NCBI GenBank assembly: GCA_007376205.1 | Contig: VMFU01000003.1 | Span: 62,001-126,000, forward strand | Length of the DNA stretch: 64,000 bases | Source: Candidatus Peregrinibacteria bacterium Gr01-1014_25 | GTDB taxonomy: Bacteria > Patescibacteriota > Gracilibacteria > Peribacterales > Peribacteraceae | Direction: 5' to 3' | Part shown: positions 18,024 through 48,066 of the stretch, piece after piece | Numbering within the stretch: the first letter of the stretch is position 1 | Layout of the letters: every line of letters begins with the position of its first letter | The notes under the pieces: model-generated | The model's input: the letters and a program-made list of their open reading frames with translations, nothing else | Told to the model about the DNA's origin: nothing | Database searches by the model: none | Position numbers and translations under genes: made by a program

Positions 18024-19082
18024 TTACTTCTTCTCCAACGCCGCACGCGCTTGATCCGCCATCGTCTTCGCGATCTGCTGCATTTGCGAAGCGAGCGTTC
18101 CCAGTGCCGAGGAAAATTCCTTGGCTTTCTCCGCAAGATGCCATGCATCCGATGCGCGCGCGAGGACCGTCTGCAGGTCGCCCTTCGCCCCCGCTTCGTA
18201 GGCGTCGACGAGAGCGACGAATCCTTCCGATGTCTTCACGGCACCCTTGATGATCCCTTCCTCATCCGCATCGTGCTTGCTCGCCAGAGCTCCGCGTGAT
18301 GCGATGTAGGCGCGGTTACTGGCGAAATCCGCCTCGGCGATGCTTGAGGCGTCCAGGAGGCGAAGAATATTCACGATTTCACTTTCCGCGAGTGACAGGA
18401 GCGCCTGCTTGCGGACACCCTGCCTGTACATGAGGAAGCGGTAGTGAAGGACGGCGACTTCCCCGCGCGACAGGTCCTTCCCGGGAACGAGCTTGCCCTG
18501 ACTGTCCGCCATCGTCATGGACGAAGCCAGCGCGTAGCGCATGTACGGATAGAACCAGGCATTCGGATCCGCGACGTCGGAAGAAAGTGGCATGCGAATT
18601 TCGCTGAACATCGAGAGCGGATCGACGGGATCCGTCTGCACGCTCCTGTAGGCAAGCTCAAGCATCTTCAGGAATTCCGCCTTTTTGACGGGATCCCCGG
18701 GACGAAATTTGTCCGTCTTTGGGGGTCCATCGATGATGGCGAGCGGCCCGCGGGCGACCTCGAGGTACGGAGCTGCCCAATCGGCAACCCCGCGGACATC
18801 GGCGAATCCCGTTCCGTCAATCTTCACGAGCGCCTCCGCCTGGACGAGCGGGGCAACGATGATTTTCACCGCCTCGGCGCGTGTCACGGTCTTGCTCGGC
18901 TTGAACGTCCCATCCGCATATCCCTGAACGATGTTGTTCTGTTTGAGAAATTCTACCGCCGAAAATGCGAAGTGATCGGAGGGGACATCCGTAAACGATG
19001 GCGTCTGCGCAGAAGCGGCGAAGGGGGAGAAGGCGCCGGCGATTGCAAGGAGGGACAGCGTCGTGCGGCGCGCGGGCGTCAT
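18024..19082 (-). CDS. S-layer homology (SLH) domain protein
   Basis: 352 residues with a signal peptide (LSLLAIAGAFSPFAASAQ). Three SLH-type repeats are visible: FTDVPSDHFAFSAVEFLKQ with GTFKPSKTVTRAEAVKI; FADVRGVADWAAPYLEVA with KFRPGDPVKKAEFLKML; and a third ending in DLSRGEVAVLHYRF. The C-terminal 130 residues are helical. SLH domains bind secondary cell-wall polymers, so this is likely a surface-anchored structural protein. Copy 3 of repeat A lies directly upstream of its start. Confidence 0.9.
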   Translation of the reverse strand: MTPARRTTLSLLAIAGAFSPFAASAQTPSFTDVPSDHFAFSAVEFLKQNNIVQGYADGTFKPSKTVTRAEAVKIIVAPLVQAEALVKIDGTGFADVRGVADWAAPYLEVARGPLAIIDGPPKTDKFRPGDPVKKAEFLKMLELAYRSVQTDPVDPLSMFSEIRMPLSSDVADPNAWFYPYMRYALASSMTMADSQGKLVPGKDLSRGEVAVLHYRFLMYRQGVRKQALLSLAESEIVNILRLLDASSIAEADFASNRAYIASRGALASKHDADEEGIIKGAVKTSEGFVALVDAYEAGAKGDLQTVLARASDAWHLAEKAKEFSSALGTLASQMQQIAKTMADQARAALEKK

Positions 19083-19110: not shown

Positions 19111-19592
19111 TAACAAGAACAATCCTTGTGTTCAAGCCCTTGCGGAAAGTTCAGAGAGATCCTCGACAGAAACTGGCCTAAGCCTCATGGACATTTGATG
19201 AGTCCTGATCGTAATATCAGGAGGTTTCATTGCACAGGCGCCTCAATGCATCCCCCGGGGCAAAGCTCATATCCGCCGAGCACAGTGAAACATGACAGCA
19301 TGCTTGAGTATTGTATGCATAAACATGCAGGAGGTTCCGATACGTACGCACCATGGTTCTCATGCACGGGTTCTCTCAGGAAGAACCCGGCTTGCATCTG
19401 CAAAAAGTTCGAAAAGATCACGACATACATGGGCCAATCTACCGACCGAAAGGACTGGTAAGCATCATGGACCGACGCGATAAGCTCACGGAGATCCAGC
19501 CAACCTAGTCAGACATTTTTCGAGCGTGCGTGCGATCGAATCACAGAGCAAAGCTCACAGGCATACGCGACAGGAGATAGACAGAAAGACCA
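19111..19592. other. 480-base region without a convincing gene
   Basis: Lower GC than its surroundings. It holds two CAGGAGGTT motifs (near 19218 and 19328), each followed only by short ORFs (the second precedes a 51-codon ORF at 19353-19508, spacing too long), and a hairpin with arms CGGGTTCT (19367-19374) and AGAACCCG (19382-19389) around CTCAGGA. It could be a long untranslated region, a structured RNA or decayed sequence. An ORF at 19126-19461 has an unconvincing composition. Confidence 0.35.
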
Positions 19593-19614
19593 TTCTCTGA
19601 TACAATACAGAGAA
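19593..19614. promoter_or_regulatory. perfect palindrome enclosing the -10 box of the HTH-surface gene
   Basis: Arms TTCTCTG (19593-19599) and CAGAGAA (19608-19614) flank ATACAATA, which contains the -10 hexamer TACAAT (19601-19606). The ATG follows at 19631. A dimeric repressor bound here would block the promoter. Confidence 0.55.
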
Positions 19615-19630
19615 ATACACACCCCAATCC

Positions 19631-22600
19631 ATGTCGTCGCTCCGCGCGACACTCCAGGAATGCAGGCGTCTTCTCGCACGCGCGCACGCGCTGGAGTTGA
19701 GTGATGGCGCGCGACAACGACTGAAGTGGTTCATCTACGCGCTGGAGCACGGAGGCAACGTGAGCAGGACATGCCGTCACTTCGGCATCTCGCGTTCGAC
19801 GTATCTGCGATGGGCGCAGCGCTTCAATTCCCAGCATCCCTCGACGCTCGAGGAAGCTTCCCGTCGCCCGCATACCGTCCGGAAGCCGGAGACGGATGCG
19901 CACACGATCGCAATGATCAAGGCCTGCCGTGAGCATGACCCGCGCTGCCCCAAGGAGGCCATCGCTCGTCAGCTTCATGACGAGCATGGCATCGCCATTT
20001 CCGCGTCCACCATCGGTCGCATCATTCGTCGCGAGAACTTCTTCTTCGCCGATACGCCGGCACACCGGAGCAAGCGGGGAGTTGATGCCGAAGCCTCGGT
20101 AGCACAACTCGAGCTCTTTCCTGAGACAGCATCTGCGCCCGCTCCGGCACCATCGCCACAATCCAAGTCCGGTGAGGAGAGCGCAGGCGGACTGGCAGCC
20201 TTGCCGCTCGCGGTCATTCTGCTTCTGGGACTGGGCGGACTATGCATGCCGGTCCGCGTCGATGCCGTCGGCACGAGCACTTCCTACCGACTGGTGGATG
20301 ACATGCCGAATGATGGCGAGGGGGATGTCGCCACGTCGACGACCTATCGCTTGCGTGGAATGATGACCTGGGGACAGCAGCCTGTCGCCAGTGGCACGTA
20401 TCAAATCCAGTTTGCGCCGCCTGTTGCCGAAGGCGGGAGTTCCGGAGGGACGACCGGAGGTGGAACAACGGGCGGCGGCTCGACAGCTGCGGCGGCGAGC
20501 GGCGGAGGCGGAGGTAGGGGGTCGGGCGGAAGAGCAAAGGGGAATGCAGCAAAAGCCCCCAAGCAAAGCGCCAAGCCTGCAGCGCCGAAGGCGCCAAAGA
20601 ACGTGCAGCCAAAAACAGGGGTGCCTGCGGCGGGAACAGCAAAGCCCGGCACCGCCGGTCCCGCGGGGGCTACGATCACCCGAAAGCCGCTGCAGAAAGT
20701 CGCAAGACCCGGGCCGCTGGCGGGCAGACCCCGCCCATCGAACAGACACCACCTGATAGGTTCGGCGACGTATCAGCGACTTGTCAGCATGTGGCGTCCA
20801 AGCAGTGCATGCCTCACGGCCCTCCGCTGCAGCAGTGAGATGGTTCCTCTTGAGACGTCGCGGCCCATGCGTTTCGTCGCGTCACTCGTCACCGAAAACG
20901 GCGTTGCGGCCGAGCAGAGTCACATGGCCCTGCTCCTGCTTTTCGCCGCTGTCGCCCTGCTGCTGTGGGTTTGCTATCGAAAAGAGCACTTCAAGGCTGT
21001 CTTCGTTGGAGCATGGACCTTCGCTCATCCGCGGAACGAACAGCGCGGTTCTGCTCGAGAACGGAGCCGGCATTTCCGCAGGTACACGCTCTACCTCATT
21101 GCGGCCTTCCTCGTGATGACGGCATCACTTTCAACAAGGAGCGTTCTTGCCGCTACATCCGCGCCTCTCCAGCACGCCTACAACGGGCACCTGCTCGACA
21201 GCTCGGGGAACGCCGTGACGTCGAACGTCAGCATCCGCTTCAGCTACTGGAAGAGCACCGATTACCAATCCGGCGATGTGAGCGGCGCCGGTGCCATCAA
21301 CACTTCCGCGACGAATTATGCGGGATGGTACGAGGTGCACAGCGTCACACCGAATAGCAAAGGAGCGTTCTCGGTCCGCCTTGGCAGCGGCACCAGCCTC
21401 CCGAGCATGAGCGGGTACAGCCTCGCTGATCTCATCAACCTCCATCTGCAAGTTGAGGTAAAGCCTGCATCGTCTGCGGACACCGCGTACGAGCTGCTCG
21501 ATCCGAATAGCAGCAGCGCAGTCATCGACCGCTCGCCTCTGCTCTCCGTGCCGTTCGCGCTGAACGCGGACATGCTCGACCAGCACGATACCGGTTCCGC
21601 AAGCGGCAACATCCTCATCATCGGCAGCGGCGGCACAATCGCCAAGAGCCAGGTGCCGTCGGGCATGACGCGCGATACATTCACCATCGACAGCGACAAC
21701 ACCGCGGCATCCTCCATCGCTCTGCAGTTCGGTCAGAACCTTGCCGAGCAATTGAGTTTCGATGTCAGTGGCGGATTCTTCAACTTCAGCGACGACCTGC
21801 GCGTGCAGGGAGATCTGACGGTGACGGGTCTCGTGAACGGCGTGGACATTACCAACCTTACAAGCTCGACGGGCGCCCTGAAGGCGTTCTCGGGAGGTGG
21901 CCTGACCATCAAGGTTTCCGGCGGCAGCTATCGCCTGAACGGCACTACCACCAACTACGCCGGGGCCAGTGGCATCGCCGTGGCAGCGAGTGCCACGAAC
22001 TACGTCTTCTTCGGCTCTGGAGGACTGACGGTGCGGACACTCGCATTCCCGACGGATGAATCGTACATCCCCGTCGCCGTCGTCACGACGAGCGCCGGCT
22101 CCGTGACGAACGTTGCCGATCGGCGCGTGCTGAATGCCGACGACCGAGAACAGACGGTGAAGGACGTCCTGCATCCGGAGTATCCGGGCGCAAGCTACGT
22201 CGAGGACGGCAGCGACAACATCGGCCAGCTCTCCGTCGAAAAAGATGGCACGACCCTCTACAACTACTACGAATGGACGTCGACACGATCGTCTTTGCAG
22301 GACTACCAGATCTCCGCGCGCGTCACCCTGTCGCCGGACTTCGTCCGGTGGGGCACGGGCATCACCATTGCGTACCGTACTTCCTCCGGAAGCGCGACGG
22401 CCAACAAGCTCAATGTGAGCGTCTACGATACCGCGGGCAACGCGGTGACACTGGCAGGGACGGCGACGGAGCTGACGTCAACGAGCTGGAAAACCCTGTC
22501 CCTCGGTTTCAGCGGTTCGCCGACATGGACACCCGGCCAGGAAATCGTCGTCGTTCTGAAGGCCTATGCTAAAGACGGCGCGAGCGTCGACATCGGCGAT

Positions 22601-22636
22601 CTCGAATTGCGCTACGTGACCCTTAGCAGTGAATAA
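19631..22636 (+). CDS. membrane-spanning fusion of a transposase-type HTH module and a large surface domain
   Basis: 1001 residues. Residues 20-145 form a winged/HTH module like those at the N-terminus of integrase-type transposases: HTH at 43-66 (NVSRTCRHFGISRSTYLRWA) and a second helical unit at 108-135. Then a hydrophobic helix (190-207), a Gly/Ala/Lys/Pro linker (264-375), a second helix (431-448), a strongly basic loop (450-484), a third helix (485-507) ending in a signal-like SVLAATS, and about 490 residues of beta-rich, Ser/Thr/Gly-rich sequence. The basic loop predicts N-in and C-out. The last 150 residues resemble the C-terminus of the next protein. No transposase DDE core is present. 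A gene fusion is an alternative to a true signalling protein. Confidence 0.8.
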   Translation: MSSLRATLQECRRLLARAHALELSDGARQRLKWFIYALEHGGNVSRTCRHFGISRSTYLRWAQRFNSQHPSTLEEASRRPHTVRKPETDAHTIAMIKACREHDPRCPKEAIARQLHDEHGIAISASTIGRIIRRENFFFADTPAHRSKRGVDAEASVAQLELFPETASAPAPAPSPQSKSGEESAGGLAALPLAVILLLGLGGLCMPVRVDAVGTSTSYRLVDDMPNDGEGDVATSTTYRLRGMMTWGQQPVASGTYQIQFAPPVAEGGSSGGTTGGGTTGGGSTAAAASGGGGGRGSGGRAKGNAAKAPKQSAKPAAPKAPKNVQPKTGVPAAGTAKPGTAGPAGATITRKPLQKVARPGPLAGRPRPSNRHHLIGSATYQRLVSMWRPSSACLTALRCSSEMVPLETSRPMRFVASLVTENGVAAEQSHMALLLLFAAVALLLWVCYRKEHFKAVFVGAWTFAHPRNEQRGSARERSRHFRRYTLYLIAAFLVMTASLSTRSVLAATSAPLQHAYNGHLLDSSGNAVTSNVSIRFSYWKSTDYQSGDVSGAGAINTSATNYAGWYEVHSVTPNSKGAFSVRLGSGTSLPSMSGYSLADLINLHLQVEVKPASSADTAYELLDPNSSSAVIDRSPLLSVPFALNADMLDQHDTGSASGNILIIGSGGTIAKSQVPSGMTRDTFTIDSDNTAASSIALQFGQNLAEQLSFDVSGGFFNFSDDLRVQGDLTVTGLVNGVDITNLTSSTGALKAFSGGGLTIKVSGGSYRLNGTTTNYAGASGIAVAASATNYVFFGSGGLTVRTLAFPTDESYIPVAVVTTSAGSVTNVADRRVLNADDREQTVKDVLHPEYPGASYVEDGSDNIGQLSVEKDGTTLYNYYEWTSTRSSLQDYQISARVTLSPDFVRWGTGITIAYRTSSGSATANKLNVSVYDTAGNAVTLAGTATELTSTSWKTLSLGFSGSPTWTPGQEIVVVLKAYAKDGASVDIGDLELRYVTLSSE

Positions 22637-22639
22637 CCC

Positions 22640-22668
22640 TTGTACATTTTTCCCCATTATGGTATGAT
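22640..22668 (+). promoter_or_regulatory. promoter TTGTAC - 17 - TATGAT
   Basis: -35 TTGTAC (22640-22645), exactly 17 bases, -10 TATGAT (22663-22668). This predicts a start near 22675, so upstream in-frame ATGs are excluded and translation begins at 22691. Confidence 0.75.
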
Positions 22669-22690
22669 GTCCCGATACCCACACACATTC

Positions 22691-24262
22691 ATGCGATCCC
22701 GCAGACTCCACCGGACGCTCGTTCGCGGCATTGCGGTCGTGACGGGCATTGCCCTGTTCGTCCCGAATGCGGCGGCATCGAGCTGGGATCCCACCCTCCT
22801 CGTGAACACGGAGTCTTTCCAGACGATCGACTCCGGCGACGGGACATCGGATCGCGAATTGCGCTTCGGCGACGCCTCGGGAACGGAGCGCCTCCTCTAC
22901 GAAGTGAGCAATTTGCGCTTCCGCCTGACACGCAGCCTGCAAGTCGGCGGGAACATTACGGCCACGGGATCCATTTTCGCTACGACGACGCTTGCCTCCT
23001 CTGGCACCCTCGTCTTTGAAGGGGCCGCATCAGGATCCTCGCTCTTCCTCGGGACGTCGCTCAAAGGAGCCGGTCTTACGGATTGTGATACCGAGGCGAC
23101 ATCGAAACTCATGTGGGATGCCACGACGGGCCGATTCAGCTGCGGAGCGGATCAAACAGGCGGAGCCGCGACCCCCGAAGTCGGCACCTCCTCCTTCTCC
23201 GGAGGCGTTCTCCGGTTGGGCGACTCGCGCTACGTCAACACCTCCGGCGACAGCATGACCGGAGCGCTCACGATCAACCTGACGAGCGGCAACCTTGGCA
23301 TCGACGTAAAGCAGACCGCTTCGGCATCGATTCTTCGCGTGAGCAAGGGGGCGGACATCCAGGGACCCCTGGCCCTCTCCGGCGCGCTTCGCACGGATGC
23401 CAACACCCTGACGATCAACGACGACATCGACTCTTCGGACGTGACGCTTACGTTCGGCAGCGACTCGGCGAGCGAGACGCTGAAGTGGCTCAACACTGCG
23501 GATAAATTCCAGTTCTCCGATGACGTCAGCGTTGTCGGTCACCTCTCCGGCTCCACCCTGCGCATCGACGGCCTCGCGGAAGTCCAGGGCGCGCTTTCGG
23601 CGTCGGGCACGATCCGCACCGAGGGTTCGCTCTCCGGCAATACCTTGAGCGTCGATGGCAACGTCACATTGCGCGGTGAAACGTACACCTTCCCGGCGAA
23701 CCAGCCCTCCACCGGCGGAATTCTCAAAACTGACGGTGCCGGTAACCTGACGTGGGCAACGTCCGCCGGCGACGGCAGCGGCGAGATTCTGTCACTCCAT
23801 CCGGAATACCCGAATGCCATCTACTTCGGCAGCGGTTCGGCGCAGGTCGGCCAGCTGACGATGTCCGGTGGAACGACGGACGTGGAGAACGCGTACGTCT
23901 GGACGTCGACGAAGAGCGCAATCCAGGATTATTGGATGTCCGTCCGCGTGCGCATCCCCGACAACTTCCTGCGCTGGGATCCCACGAGGCCGATTCAGTT
24001 CCGTTACAAGACCGCCGTCAACGGCGTGACGAACAACCATCTGACATTGCGGATGAAGGACACAGCCAATGGGAACGTGACCTTGAGCAGCACGGGCGGA
24101 CTGATGAGCAATGCCTGGACGACGAAGACGATCACCGGTCCCGAGTCCTCGGGGACGTGGACGCCGAAGGGCTACGCGACGGTCTACATCAAGACCGCCG
24201 CGAATAACACGGGCAACGCCGCGGCGGGGTTCCTGAACCTGAACTTCGAGACGGCGAAGTAA
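22691..24262 (+). CDS. repetitive surface protein (tail-fibre-like)
   Basis: 523 residues from the ATG at 22691, chosen because the promoter ends at 22668. Signal peptide (RGIAVVTGIALFVPNAAAS). The mature part begins SSWDPTLLVNTESFQTID, then carries beta-rich short repeats typical of trimeric fibre-like proteins (LASSGTLVFEGAASGSSLFL, GDSRYVNTSGDSMTGALTI). The last 150 residues (LHPEYPNAIYFG to the end) share a domain with the preceding HTH fusion. Its N-terminal half is a close paralogue of the 653-residue protein at 27000-28961. Probably exposed on the cell. Confidence 0.85.
   Translation: MRSRRLHRTLVRGIAVVTGIALFVPNAAASSWDPTLLVNTESFQTIDSGDGTSDRELRFGDASGTERLLYEVSNLRFRLTRSLQVGGNITATGSIFATTTLASSGTLVFEGAASGSSLFLGTSLKGAGLTDCDTEATSKLMWDATTGRFSCGADQTGGAATPEVGTSSFSGGVLRLGDSRYVNTSGDSMTGALTINLTSGNLGIDVKQTASASILRVSKGADIQGPLALSGALRTDANTLTINDDIDSSDVTLTFGSDSASETLKWLNTADKFQFSDDVSVVGHLSGSTLRIDGLAEVQGALSASGTIRTEGSLSGNTLSVDGNVTLRGETYTFPANQPSTGGILKTDGAGNLTWATSAGDGSGEILSLHPEYPNAIYFGSGSAQVGQLTMSGGTTDVENAYVWTSTKSAIQDYWMSVRVRIPDNFLRWDPTRPIQFRYKTAVNGVTNNHLTLRMKDTANGNVTLSSTGGLMSNAWTTKTITGPESSGTWTPKGYATVYIKTAANNTGNAAAGFLNLNFETAK
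23081..23262 (+). repeat. 182-bp inverted repeat, left copy
   Basis: The reverse complement of 28378-28559 matches with about nine mismatches by hand alignment. Both copies encode the same segment (TEATSKLMWDAT and onwards) of the two paralogous surface genes, in opposite orientation. Confidence 0.75.
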
Positions 24263-46848: not shown

Positions 46849-48066
46849 ATGGCAGATGCCAGTAACCTTTCCCCGCCGTCGCGCGGCCCGCAGGGTCCCG
46901 AAGGGACCAGCGTGCTTTCCCTACATACACGATGGTTCCCCGTCCTTTCCTTACCTCCCCATGCCCGGCTGGAACGTCAGACGGCGGAGACTTTTCTTTG
47001 GCTACTTTCTTTGTGTGGTGACAAAGAAAGTGGCATTCACACGTCTCCAGAGAAGGGTCGCGTCCGCCTCGAAGTCCGTCTCCACGGCATTCTGGAGGCG
47101 CTCGATCCGATGACGCCGGCCATGTATGAGCAGCTCCTGCGCCGCGTGAAGTTCGTCTCCAAGCTCAAGTTGAACGTCACCAACGTTCCGCAGGACGGCC
47201 AGTACACGTTCGACGTGAAACAGTCCGATGGCGTGGTGAACACCGTCAACGTCCGCGTGGCAACGCTGCCATCGCGTTTCGGTGAATCCATGACACTCCG
47301 TCTGCTCGATCCCAAGCGCGGCATTCTTCCGCTGACGTCACTCGGCTTCCCAGAGGAAATGCAGAAGCAGCTCGAGCAGCTCGCGCGCATGCCCTACGGA
47401 TTGGTCCTCGTCACCGGGCCGACCGGTTCGGGAAAGACGACGACCCTCTACGCGCTTCTCTCCACGCTCATCGGTACCAAGCGCAACATCATCACCCTGG
47501 AAGACCCGGTGGAGTACGAAATCGGCGGCATCGTCCAGAGCGAGATCGACAGCGATCACGGATTCACGTTCGCGTCGGGATTGCGATCGGTTCTGCGCCA
47601 CGACCCGAACGTCGTCCTCGTCGGCGAAATCCGCGACCTCGAGACGGCGCAGACCGCCGTCGACGCCGCACTCACGGGTCACCTCGTGCTCTCCACGCTG
47701 CACACAAACTCCGCGATCGAAGCGATCCCGCGCCTCCTGTCGATGGGTGTCAGTCCCTACACGTTCGCCCCGTCGCTGCGCGCGGTGCTGGCACAGCGTC
47801 TCGTGCGCTACCTCTCCGACGACTGCCGCAAGCAGGGCGCGTCGTGCGACCCGGCATCGCCCGCAAGCTACGGCGGACGGATGGTGTTGCCGGAACTATT
47901 GACGGTGGACGAAGAAATCCGCTCGCTCATCCTGGCCCAGGAGGATGAGGCGGCGATCCGCGCCGCGGCGAAGAAGAAGGGCTTCTCCACGATGCGCGAA
48001 TGGGGCGATGACCTCGTGAAATCGGGTATCACGACGAAACAGGAGGTGGAACGGGTGGCCTTATAA
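46849..48066 (+). CDS. PilB/GspE-type secretion ATPase with replaced N-terminus
   Basis: 405 residues. From about residue 62 (SGIHTSPEKGRVRLEVRLHG) it matches the C-terminal half of PilB/GspE: PQDGQYTFDV, STLPSRFGESMTLRLL-like LPSRFGESMTLRLLDP, Walker A GPTGSGKTTTLY, the Asp box ITLEDPVEYEI, Walker B HDPNVVLVGEIRD and the His box TGHLVLSTLHTNSA. The MshEN-type N-terminal domain is missing, and the CxxC zinc knuckle after QRLVRYL is lost. The first 61 codons have an odd composition, begin inside a dispersed repeat and contain a 20-base inverted repeat. It may be functional with another start, or a 5'-truncated relic. No other pilus genes are adjacent. Confidence 0.8.
   Translation: MADASNLSPPSRGPQGPEGTSVLSLHTRWFPVLSLPPHARLERQTAETFLWLLSLCGDKESGIHTSPEKGRVRLEVRLHGILEALDPMTPAMYEQLLRRVKFVSKLKLNVTNVPQDGQYTFDVKQSDGVVNTVNVRVATLPSRFGESMTLRLLDPKRGILPLTSLGFPEEMQKQLEQLARMPYGLVLVTGPTGSGKTTTLYALLSTLIGTKRNIITLEDPVEYEIGGIVQSEIDSDHGFTFASGLRSVLRHDPNVVLVGEIRDLETAQTAVDAALTGHLVLSTLHTNSAIEAIPRLLSMGVSPYTFAPSLRAVLAQRLVRYLSDDCRKQGASCDPASPASYGGRMVLPELLTVDEEIRSLILAQEDEAAIRAAAKKKGFSTMREWGDDLVKSGITTKQEVERVAL
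47004..47031. repeat. 10-bp inverted repeat at the PilB homology boundary
   Basis: Arms ACTTTCTTTG and CAAAGAAAGT around TGTGGTGA, just before the codons where similarity to PilB/GspE begins. Confidence 0.65.

Follow-up and report, generated by a model that had tools for sequence, protein, structure and literature searches.

A transposase-type DNA-binding module and a phage-like surface fibre joined in one reading frame of a Peregrinibacteria genome, with a candidate operator of transposon-end type

Patescibacteria live attached to other microbes, and to our knowledge the control of their attachment proteins is almost unknown. The stretch analysed here, hereafter the window, comprises 64,000 nt of contig VMFU01000003.1 (positions 62,001 to 126,000, forward strand; assembly GCA_007376205.1) from Candidatus Peregrinibacteria bacterium Gr01-1014_25, whose genome amounts to 1.12 Mb and whose named relatives are Candidatus Peribacteria. 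The window contains an open reading frame (ORF) in which a helix-turn-helix (HTH) module of the IS481 transposase type is followed by three hydrophobic segments and a predicted surface fibre, and upstream of this ORF lies an operator-like site of a kind that resembles the terminal inverted repeats (TIRs) of IS481 elements.

The fused reading frame and its modules

The ORF is a single unbroken frame that runs on the plus strand from an ATG at 19631 to the stop ending at 22636 and encodes 1001 residues. The frame given in the first-pass annotation (19593-22636) is real, with a start placed 38 nt too early, in the promoter region. The whole ORF is GC-rich at the third codon position, the identical fused order is found in independent metagenome-assembled genomes (MAGs), and the fibre part is 49-51% identical in the fused relatives L005 and L014 (L numbers denote loci). 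Neither a frameshift nor a chimeric assembly join was apparent from the frame, the third-position GC and the independent MAGs, and such an origin of the ORF is rejected on these features together with the fused relatives. The three hydrophobic segments described earlier, the last two of which enclose a basic loop, are placed by hydropathy at residues 188-204, 432-448 and 486-502; the exported-looking part after the third segment amounts to about 494 residues, against about 490 in the first description. No internal start codon that would give separate proteins was seen between the second transmembrane (TM) segment and the fibre signal peptide. For the small exported module behind the first segment, designated M1, AlphaFold did not resolve a fold (pLDDT below 60).

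The two HTH-like units were recovered as Pfam HTH_28 at residues 29-80 (3.6e-9) and HTH_32 at 59-132 (1.3e-10), and the NCBIfam IS481 transposase model NF033577 matches residues 29-137 (1.8e-21) with 77 bits against a full-length cut-off of 224, corresponding to the N-terminal part of the transposase only. PHROG profiles likewise match the HTH part to transposases, and Pfam and NCBIfam profiles run against the ORF gave no rve match, hence no DDE catalytic domain. Using an alignment of relatives, AlphaFold predicts two helical units with pLDDT of about 93-98, for which Foldseek ranks the TnsB transposase and Pax paired domains at the top, with E-values that are weak (0.025 and above) as the query is mostly disordered. 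A DNA-binding fold is thus predicted, as had been proposed before. By Pfam, NCBIfam and Foldseek the units are of the homeodomain-like or transposase HTH kind and not of the OmpR/PhoB-type winged-helix kind, and the RodZ-type HTH_25 is absent from the Pfam matches of the ORF.

The C-terminal half is, as judged from profile and structure comparisons, a phage-like surface fibre. Its N-terminal domain matches the Bdellovibrio MAT_N model NF053851 (E=3.5e-5 with the whole protein) at a sub-threshold 23.7-24.8 bits against a cut-off of 60, the same profile matches 8 of 20 relatives, all below threshold, and membership of the fibre half in the MAT superfamily is plausible. Foldseek of the tip returned carbohydrate-binding modules and phage tailspikes or tail-fibre C-termini at E about 1e-5, pointing to a fibre that would bind glycans. 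The tip has a paralogous stretch in the next gene (contig 85795-86253). All features are collected in Table 1.

Table 1. Features predicted at the fibre locus, in window coordinates; residues are those of the 1001-residue ORF product.
Feature	Residues	Position	Strand	Basis
Two-unit transposase-type HTH	1-150	19631..20080	+	Pfam, NCBIfam, PHROG, AlphaFold, Foldseek
TM1 / internal signal peptide	188-212	20192..20266	+	hydropathy; consensus cleavage between VDA and VG, after residue 212
M1 module, small, exported, two short repeats (STSYRL...TW)	213-262	20267..20416	+	conserved in relatives
Variable exported linker, Gly/Ser/Pro/Ala-rich	263-430	20417..20920	+	sequence, relatives
TM2, equivalent to C-terminal anchor of M1 protein in split relatives	432-448	20924..20974	+	hydropathy; split genes end in TM and basic tail
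Basic cytoplasmic loop	449-485	20975..21085	+	10 K/R against 3 D/E in 449-484
TM3 / second internal signal peptide	486-507	21086..21151	+	consensus cleavage between VLA and AT, after residue 507
N-terminal fibre domain, like Bdellovibrio MAT_N	508-647	21152..21571	+	NF053851; beta fold predicted
Phage tail-fibre-like section	about 750-840	21878..22150	+	profile match to phage long tail fibre chain 8kec_A, E=7.7e-8
Beta-sandwich tip, common to downstream gene	846-1001	22166..22633	+	Foldseek
Operator-like site GTTCAGAGAGATCCTCGACA		19149..19168	+	top score of position weight matrix, 18.3 bits, both strands of 64 kb
GTTCGAAAAGATC, two GNTC half-sites 9 bp apart		19407..19419	+	pattern count, weak alone
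GCTCACGGAGATC, two GNTC half-sites 9 bp apart		19484..19496	+	pattern count, weak alone
GCTCACAGGCATACGCGACA, weak motif copy near promoter		19553..19572	+	6.9 bits, not significant alone
Putative promoter TAGACA-17-TACAAT		19578..19606	+	read from sequence, inferred
Palindrome TTCTCTG-N8-CAGAGAA holding the -10 of the putative promoter		19593-19614		
Second fibre gene, own signal peptide, apparent own promoter		22640..24262	+	start probably ATG near 22692

Fused and split relatives and the internal signal-peptidase sites

Relatives were searched in 74 genomes of the host's family, 49 of which have a match to the protein; a scan of the genome contigs with the single sequence returned nothing, whereas a profile scan did find matches. 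Three modules can be distinguished, namely the HTH, an M1 module (signal peptide, short double repeat, variable linker, C-terminal TM segment and basic tail) and a fibre module (signal peptide, MAT_N-like domain, body and tip). They are found as three genes that overlap or abut (L022/L067, L043/L064, L015/L063), as an HTH gene beside a fused M1-fibre gene (L003/L054, L012/L057, L016/L066, L024/L078) or with all modules in one ORF (the window, L005/L053, L014/L060, L033/L084, L035/L087, L034, L036, L037 and, twice, L038), and some cassettes are without an HTH. At every locus of the first two arrangements the HTH is encoded by a gene of its own that lacks a TM segment. The order of HTH, TM segment and exported part that had been described for the window recurs, and relatives are thus not always split. 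A tree of the N-terminal domain of the fibre places the fused L060 and the split L067 as sisters with support 100/99, and the fused state needs four changes, at least two of them forced by well-supported branches.

In a second class a one-unit HTH is fused to other fibre parts (L110-L116, L069, L139-L143), in frames of up to thousands of residues; it heads open frames of fibre repeats of 4126 residues at G070:C5:147861 (L140) and of 2907 residues at G071:C33:97705 (L139). In six one-unit HTH-fibre proteins (L110, L113, L116, L119, L142, L143) the TM segment is immediately preceded, on its cytoplasmic side, by a CPxC-like cysteine motif. The third class, type C, comprises small HTH genes with their own uncleaved-looking TM segment beside a large fibre-like ORF (L117, L118, L120-L124, L126, L127). 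By our own count, at least one HTH-fibre fusion is present in about 22 of the 74 family genomes.

Both internal junctions of the fused proteins bear an A-x-A-type motif, with Ala at -1 in 6/6 HTH-fused proteins at the M1 junction and in 10/10 at the fibre junction, and the separate M1 and fibre genes of split relatives have a matching motif at their N-terminal signal peptides. Since plain membrane anchors should have let such a motif decay, its retention suggests that signal peptidase probably cleaves the fusion at both junctions in the manner of a polyprotein, which would explain the interchange of fused and split forms. Signal peptidase I is encoded in the genome, along with two M50 proteases of the site-2 type. 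The dull alternative of the first-pass annotation, a gene fusion that had kept old signal peptides, proved partly right in that the internal junctions retain consensus signal-peptidase sites.

Operator-like motifs and their likeness to IS481 ends

A de novo motif, GTTCAGATACATnnTnGACA, was obtained from 18 upstream regions of two-unit HTH cassettes, with the window site outside the training set, and reached 15.2 bits versus about 10.1 in shuffled sets. It is found in most HTH-bearing cassettes next to the -35 box, which in many of them coincides with its 3' end. GNTC half-sites 9 bp apart form 21 pairs in these 18 regions, multiples of 9 are enriched, and 0/1000 random sets were as high. Upstream of L014, L005, L033 and L038 iteron-like arrays of up to six half-sites in 9-bp steps are seen, a step that is odd for one-face binding. 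Among HTH-less orthologous cassettes, used as control, 0/25 exceed the 99% random level for the motif and 0/25 contain a spacing-9 pair. By this co-occurrence of operator and HTH, a regulatory role of the HTH is well supported.

When both strands of the window were scanned with the position weight matrix (PWM), the best match was the site at 19149, which is intergenic and upstream of the fibre ORF, followed by runners-up of 16.0 and 10.7 bits. This site is also the sole exact match to GNTCAGNNNNATCNTNGACA in the 1.12-Mb genome; as that pattern was written after the site had been seen, only the PWM scan counts as held out. The second-best PWM match, at 47156-47175 on the minus strand, lies inside an ORF and is probably due to chance. 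The pattern of GTTCGAAAAGATC is common by chance, occurring 14 times on the plus strand of the 64 kb, and spacing-9 GNTC pairs number 108 on both strands of the window, where they are enriched at the codon period; therefore, the three pairs upstream of the ORF are weak alone, and weight is placed on the relatives and the 19149 site. A divergent gene for an S-layer-homology (SLH) protein (18024-19082, minus strand) starts 67 nt from this site and may share control with the fibre gene.

Instead of the two-unit motif, the one-unit HTH genes carry TGTnGCGCnACA, as a rule 21-22 nt downstream of the -10 box. TGTnGCGCnACA (TGTMGCGCKACA) is present within two mismatches in 11/11 one-unit HTH genes and was again seen in four of five such genes fetched later. 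Exact TGTMGCGCKACA copies number 0-2 per genome, and eight of nine adjoin a one-unit HTH gene; the ninth (G053:C1) lies inside an unrelated coding region. Its absence from the window genome is expected, since the only such HTH of this genome is of the two-unit class. As the two sequences are split by HTH class, operator type goes with HTH type. Repression is the likelier sign of regulation in the one-unit class, judging from an operator that sits about 20 nt downstream of the -10 box.

A left tip with the sequence TGCATAGGTTCAGATACAT(A/C)TTGCACTCC (also TGCATAGGTTCAGATACAT(A/C)TTGCAC) is common to the IS481 elements L144 and L148 and to nine or more other insertions whose flanks are unrelated. 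Over 19/19 nt, the operator of the fibre cassette in genome G001 equals this insertion sequence (IS) tip. With the three most TIR-like operators removed from the PWM, the tip still ranked first in most IS loci and second in L148. An IS481 element of another Patescibacterial family, whose HTH is closer to that of the window, has a 30-bp TIR with GGTTCAGATAGAT, scored by the operator PWM at 16.0 bits versus 6.8 for the next match, and the TIRs of five IS481 elements from diverse Patescibacteria (L178, L179, L181, L182, L184) have a common GATACAT core. Outside the host family, the HTH matches listed for a sample of the phylum are mostly ORFs of about 330-377 residues, the length of a transposase; of six that were inspected, five include the catalytic part and the remaining one is a truncated frame. 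In 15 HTH cassettes scanned with their flanks, no inverted motif copy was found downstream, and strong sites lie upstream and on the coding strand. That a transposase DNA-binding domain has been domesticated in the HTH and that the operator is a TIR-type sequence is well supported by these comparisons; operator and HTH may stem from one element, or the HTH may merely have kept its specificity, and either would fit.

Proposed regulation, alternatives and related systems

The explanation held to be probable on balance is that the window carries a fused operon in which an IS481-type HTH and a TIR-type site have been domesticated as a local autoregulator of a surface-fibre cassette. It builds on the computed homology, gene arrangements, operator/HTH co-occurrence, operator-TIR similarity and conserved cleavage motifs, from which we infer DNA binding, autoregulation with its sign, cleavage, topology and glycan binding. 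The HTH would bind sites beside its own cassette promoter, namely the motif next to the -35 box, which is often accompanied by GNTC repeats in 9-bp steps farther upstream. The chain would be arranged with the HTH inside, TM1, M1 outside, TM2, the basic loop inside, TM3 and the fibre outside, and signal peptidase I, probably cutting after residues 212 and 507, would yield an HTH and an M1 protein that are each anchored in the membrane and a glycan-binding fibre that is free or attached to the surface. These would be the products that relatives make from separate genes, and one HTH would be made per fibre, fitting a product-coupled control of fibre output. A more tentative extension, possible rather than probable, is that the captured HTH and its transposon-end operator are delivered to the membrane with each fibre, so that fibre export or contact sets the transcription of the fibre's own gene, and that this has happened to many independent fibre genes in one lineage with two operator codes.

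Several observations weigh against domesticated autoregulation. The best window site lies 480 nt from the ATG and close (67 nt) to the divergent SLH gene, and the sites nearer the promoter are weak. The HTH cassettes L020/L064, L016/L066, L024/L078 and L003/L054 score low, and two-unit HTH genes with a separate TM anchor are mostly without the motif. No TIR counterpart has been demonstrated for the one-unit palindrome, the window HTH shares only 28% identity with the transposase encoded by the best-sampled IS, and the likeness to TIRs could in principle stem from old IS insertions at promoters. Conservation of A-x-A is, moreover, no proof of cleavage at an internal site.

Whether the fusion itself is selected is the one point on which autoregulation and a neutral origin part, the two being otherwise compatible. 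Neighbouring genes may have fused in frame and been separated again by signal peptidase, leaving an ordinary operon regulator and a functionless fusion, as would fit split genes that overlap or abut, cleavage sites that are kept and a fused or split state that changes between close relatives; such neutrality falls just short of an even chance, given that HTH-fibre fusions recur in the one-unit class with other fibre parts and frames of thousands of residues and that tethered HTHs recur as stand-alone TM proteins. Those type C proteins, with their uncleaved-looking TM segment beside a fibre-like ORF, are in keeping with an intact membrane-spanning one-component sensor of ToxR/CadC kind, in which the fibre or M1 would sense a surface or partner cell and signal to a tethered HTH. 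Although the recurring HTH-TM-exported order and the operator that accompanies the HTH agree with such a sensor, it is considered unlikely, as signal-peptidase sites are conserved between the HTH and the exported parts, split relatives have a soluble-looking HTH, and two signal peptides with a long low-complexity linker separate HTH and fibre. The first-pass proposal of a domesticated transposase HTH turned into a surface-sensing regulator can therefore be retained only in part: the module is of transposase (IS481) type with a predicted DNA-binding fold, and the TIR-type DNA site that goes with it makes a domesticated regulator the best reading, whereas surface sensing is unsupported because several relatives have a separate HTH without a TM segment and the cleavage sites suggest that HTH and fibre part after export. 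The profile search, the search of related genomes and the structure prediction proposed along with it returned, respectively, an IS481 HTH, a recurring order and folds at both ends.

In RodZ and similar HTH-TM proteins the HTH binds protein, and two HTH units near the membrane could equally hold DNA, so that a docking module or a chromosome-envelope tether without transcription control can be envisaged; with HTH presence matched by a promoter-proximal motif whose type differs with HTH class, this is quite improbable. A present or former mobile element, with the upstream motif as its transposon left end and movement in trans, is the slightest prospect among these, even though the motif matches IS481 tips: the ORF has no DDE domain, the position of the motif is tied to the -35 box, and mobility is disfavoured by a TIR-type motif found on one side only in the 15 cassettes scanned with flanks.

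The combination found here is unusual, with individual ingredients that are of known kinds. IS481-family transposases share the bipartite HTH, homologous over window residues 29-137, and the TIRs of Patescibacterial copies contain operator-type sequence; unlike them, the window protein has exported modules in place of a DDE domain and no downstream inverted site. With ToxR/CadC-type regulators (PMC10269533, PMC5430869) it shares a DNA-binding domain inside, a TM segment and an exported part in one chain, but it differs in its two-unit transposase-type HTH, its three hydrophobic segments and the consensus cleavage sites between regulator and exported part; the words transposase, signal peptide and fiber are absent from the main text of a survey of transmembrane transcription regulators. 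As with Bdellovibrio MAT fibres (PMC10769870), a signal peptide directly precedes a beta-rich domain of about 130 residues with a sub-threshold MAT_N match, followed by a phage-fibre-like body and a beta-sandwich tip, whereas the window ORF has a DNA-binding module and a membrane protein in front, and no S74 chaperone was found in it.

If domesticated autoregulation is correct, the locus offers a concrete, testable circuit of a fibre gene, its own DNA-binding module and an operator, an apparent bacterial case of joint domestication of a transposase DNA-binding domain and a transposon-end-like sequence, and a likely bacterial polyprotein that signal peptidase would divide. Bradyrhizobium japonicum fbcH (cytochrome b/c1) likewise encodes in one ORF two proteins, which signal peptidase parts from each other at an internal signal sequence; its precursor differs in having no DNA-binding module, and the proteins are unrelated.

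Among the relatives, four fibre genes consist of two same-frame ORFs with exactly one stop between them (L046, 7786-11322, minus strand; L082, 2801-5995; L088, 7896-9467; L040, 3456-6896), the stop coming after about 430 residues in L046 and L082. These could represent a split gene, decay or readthrough.

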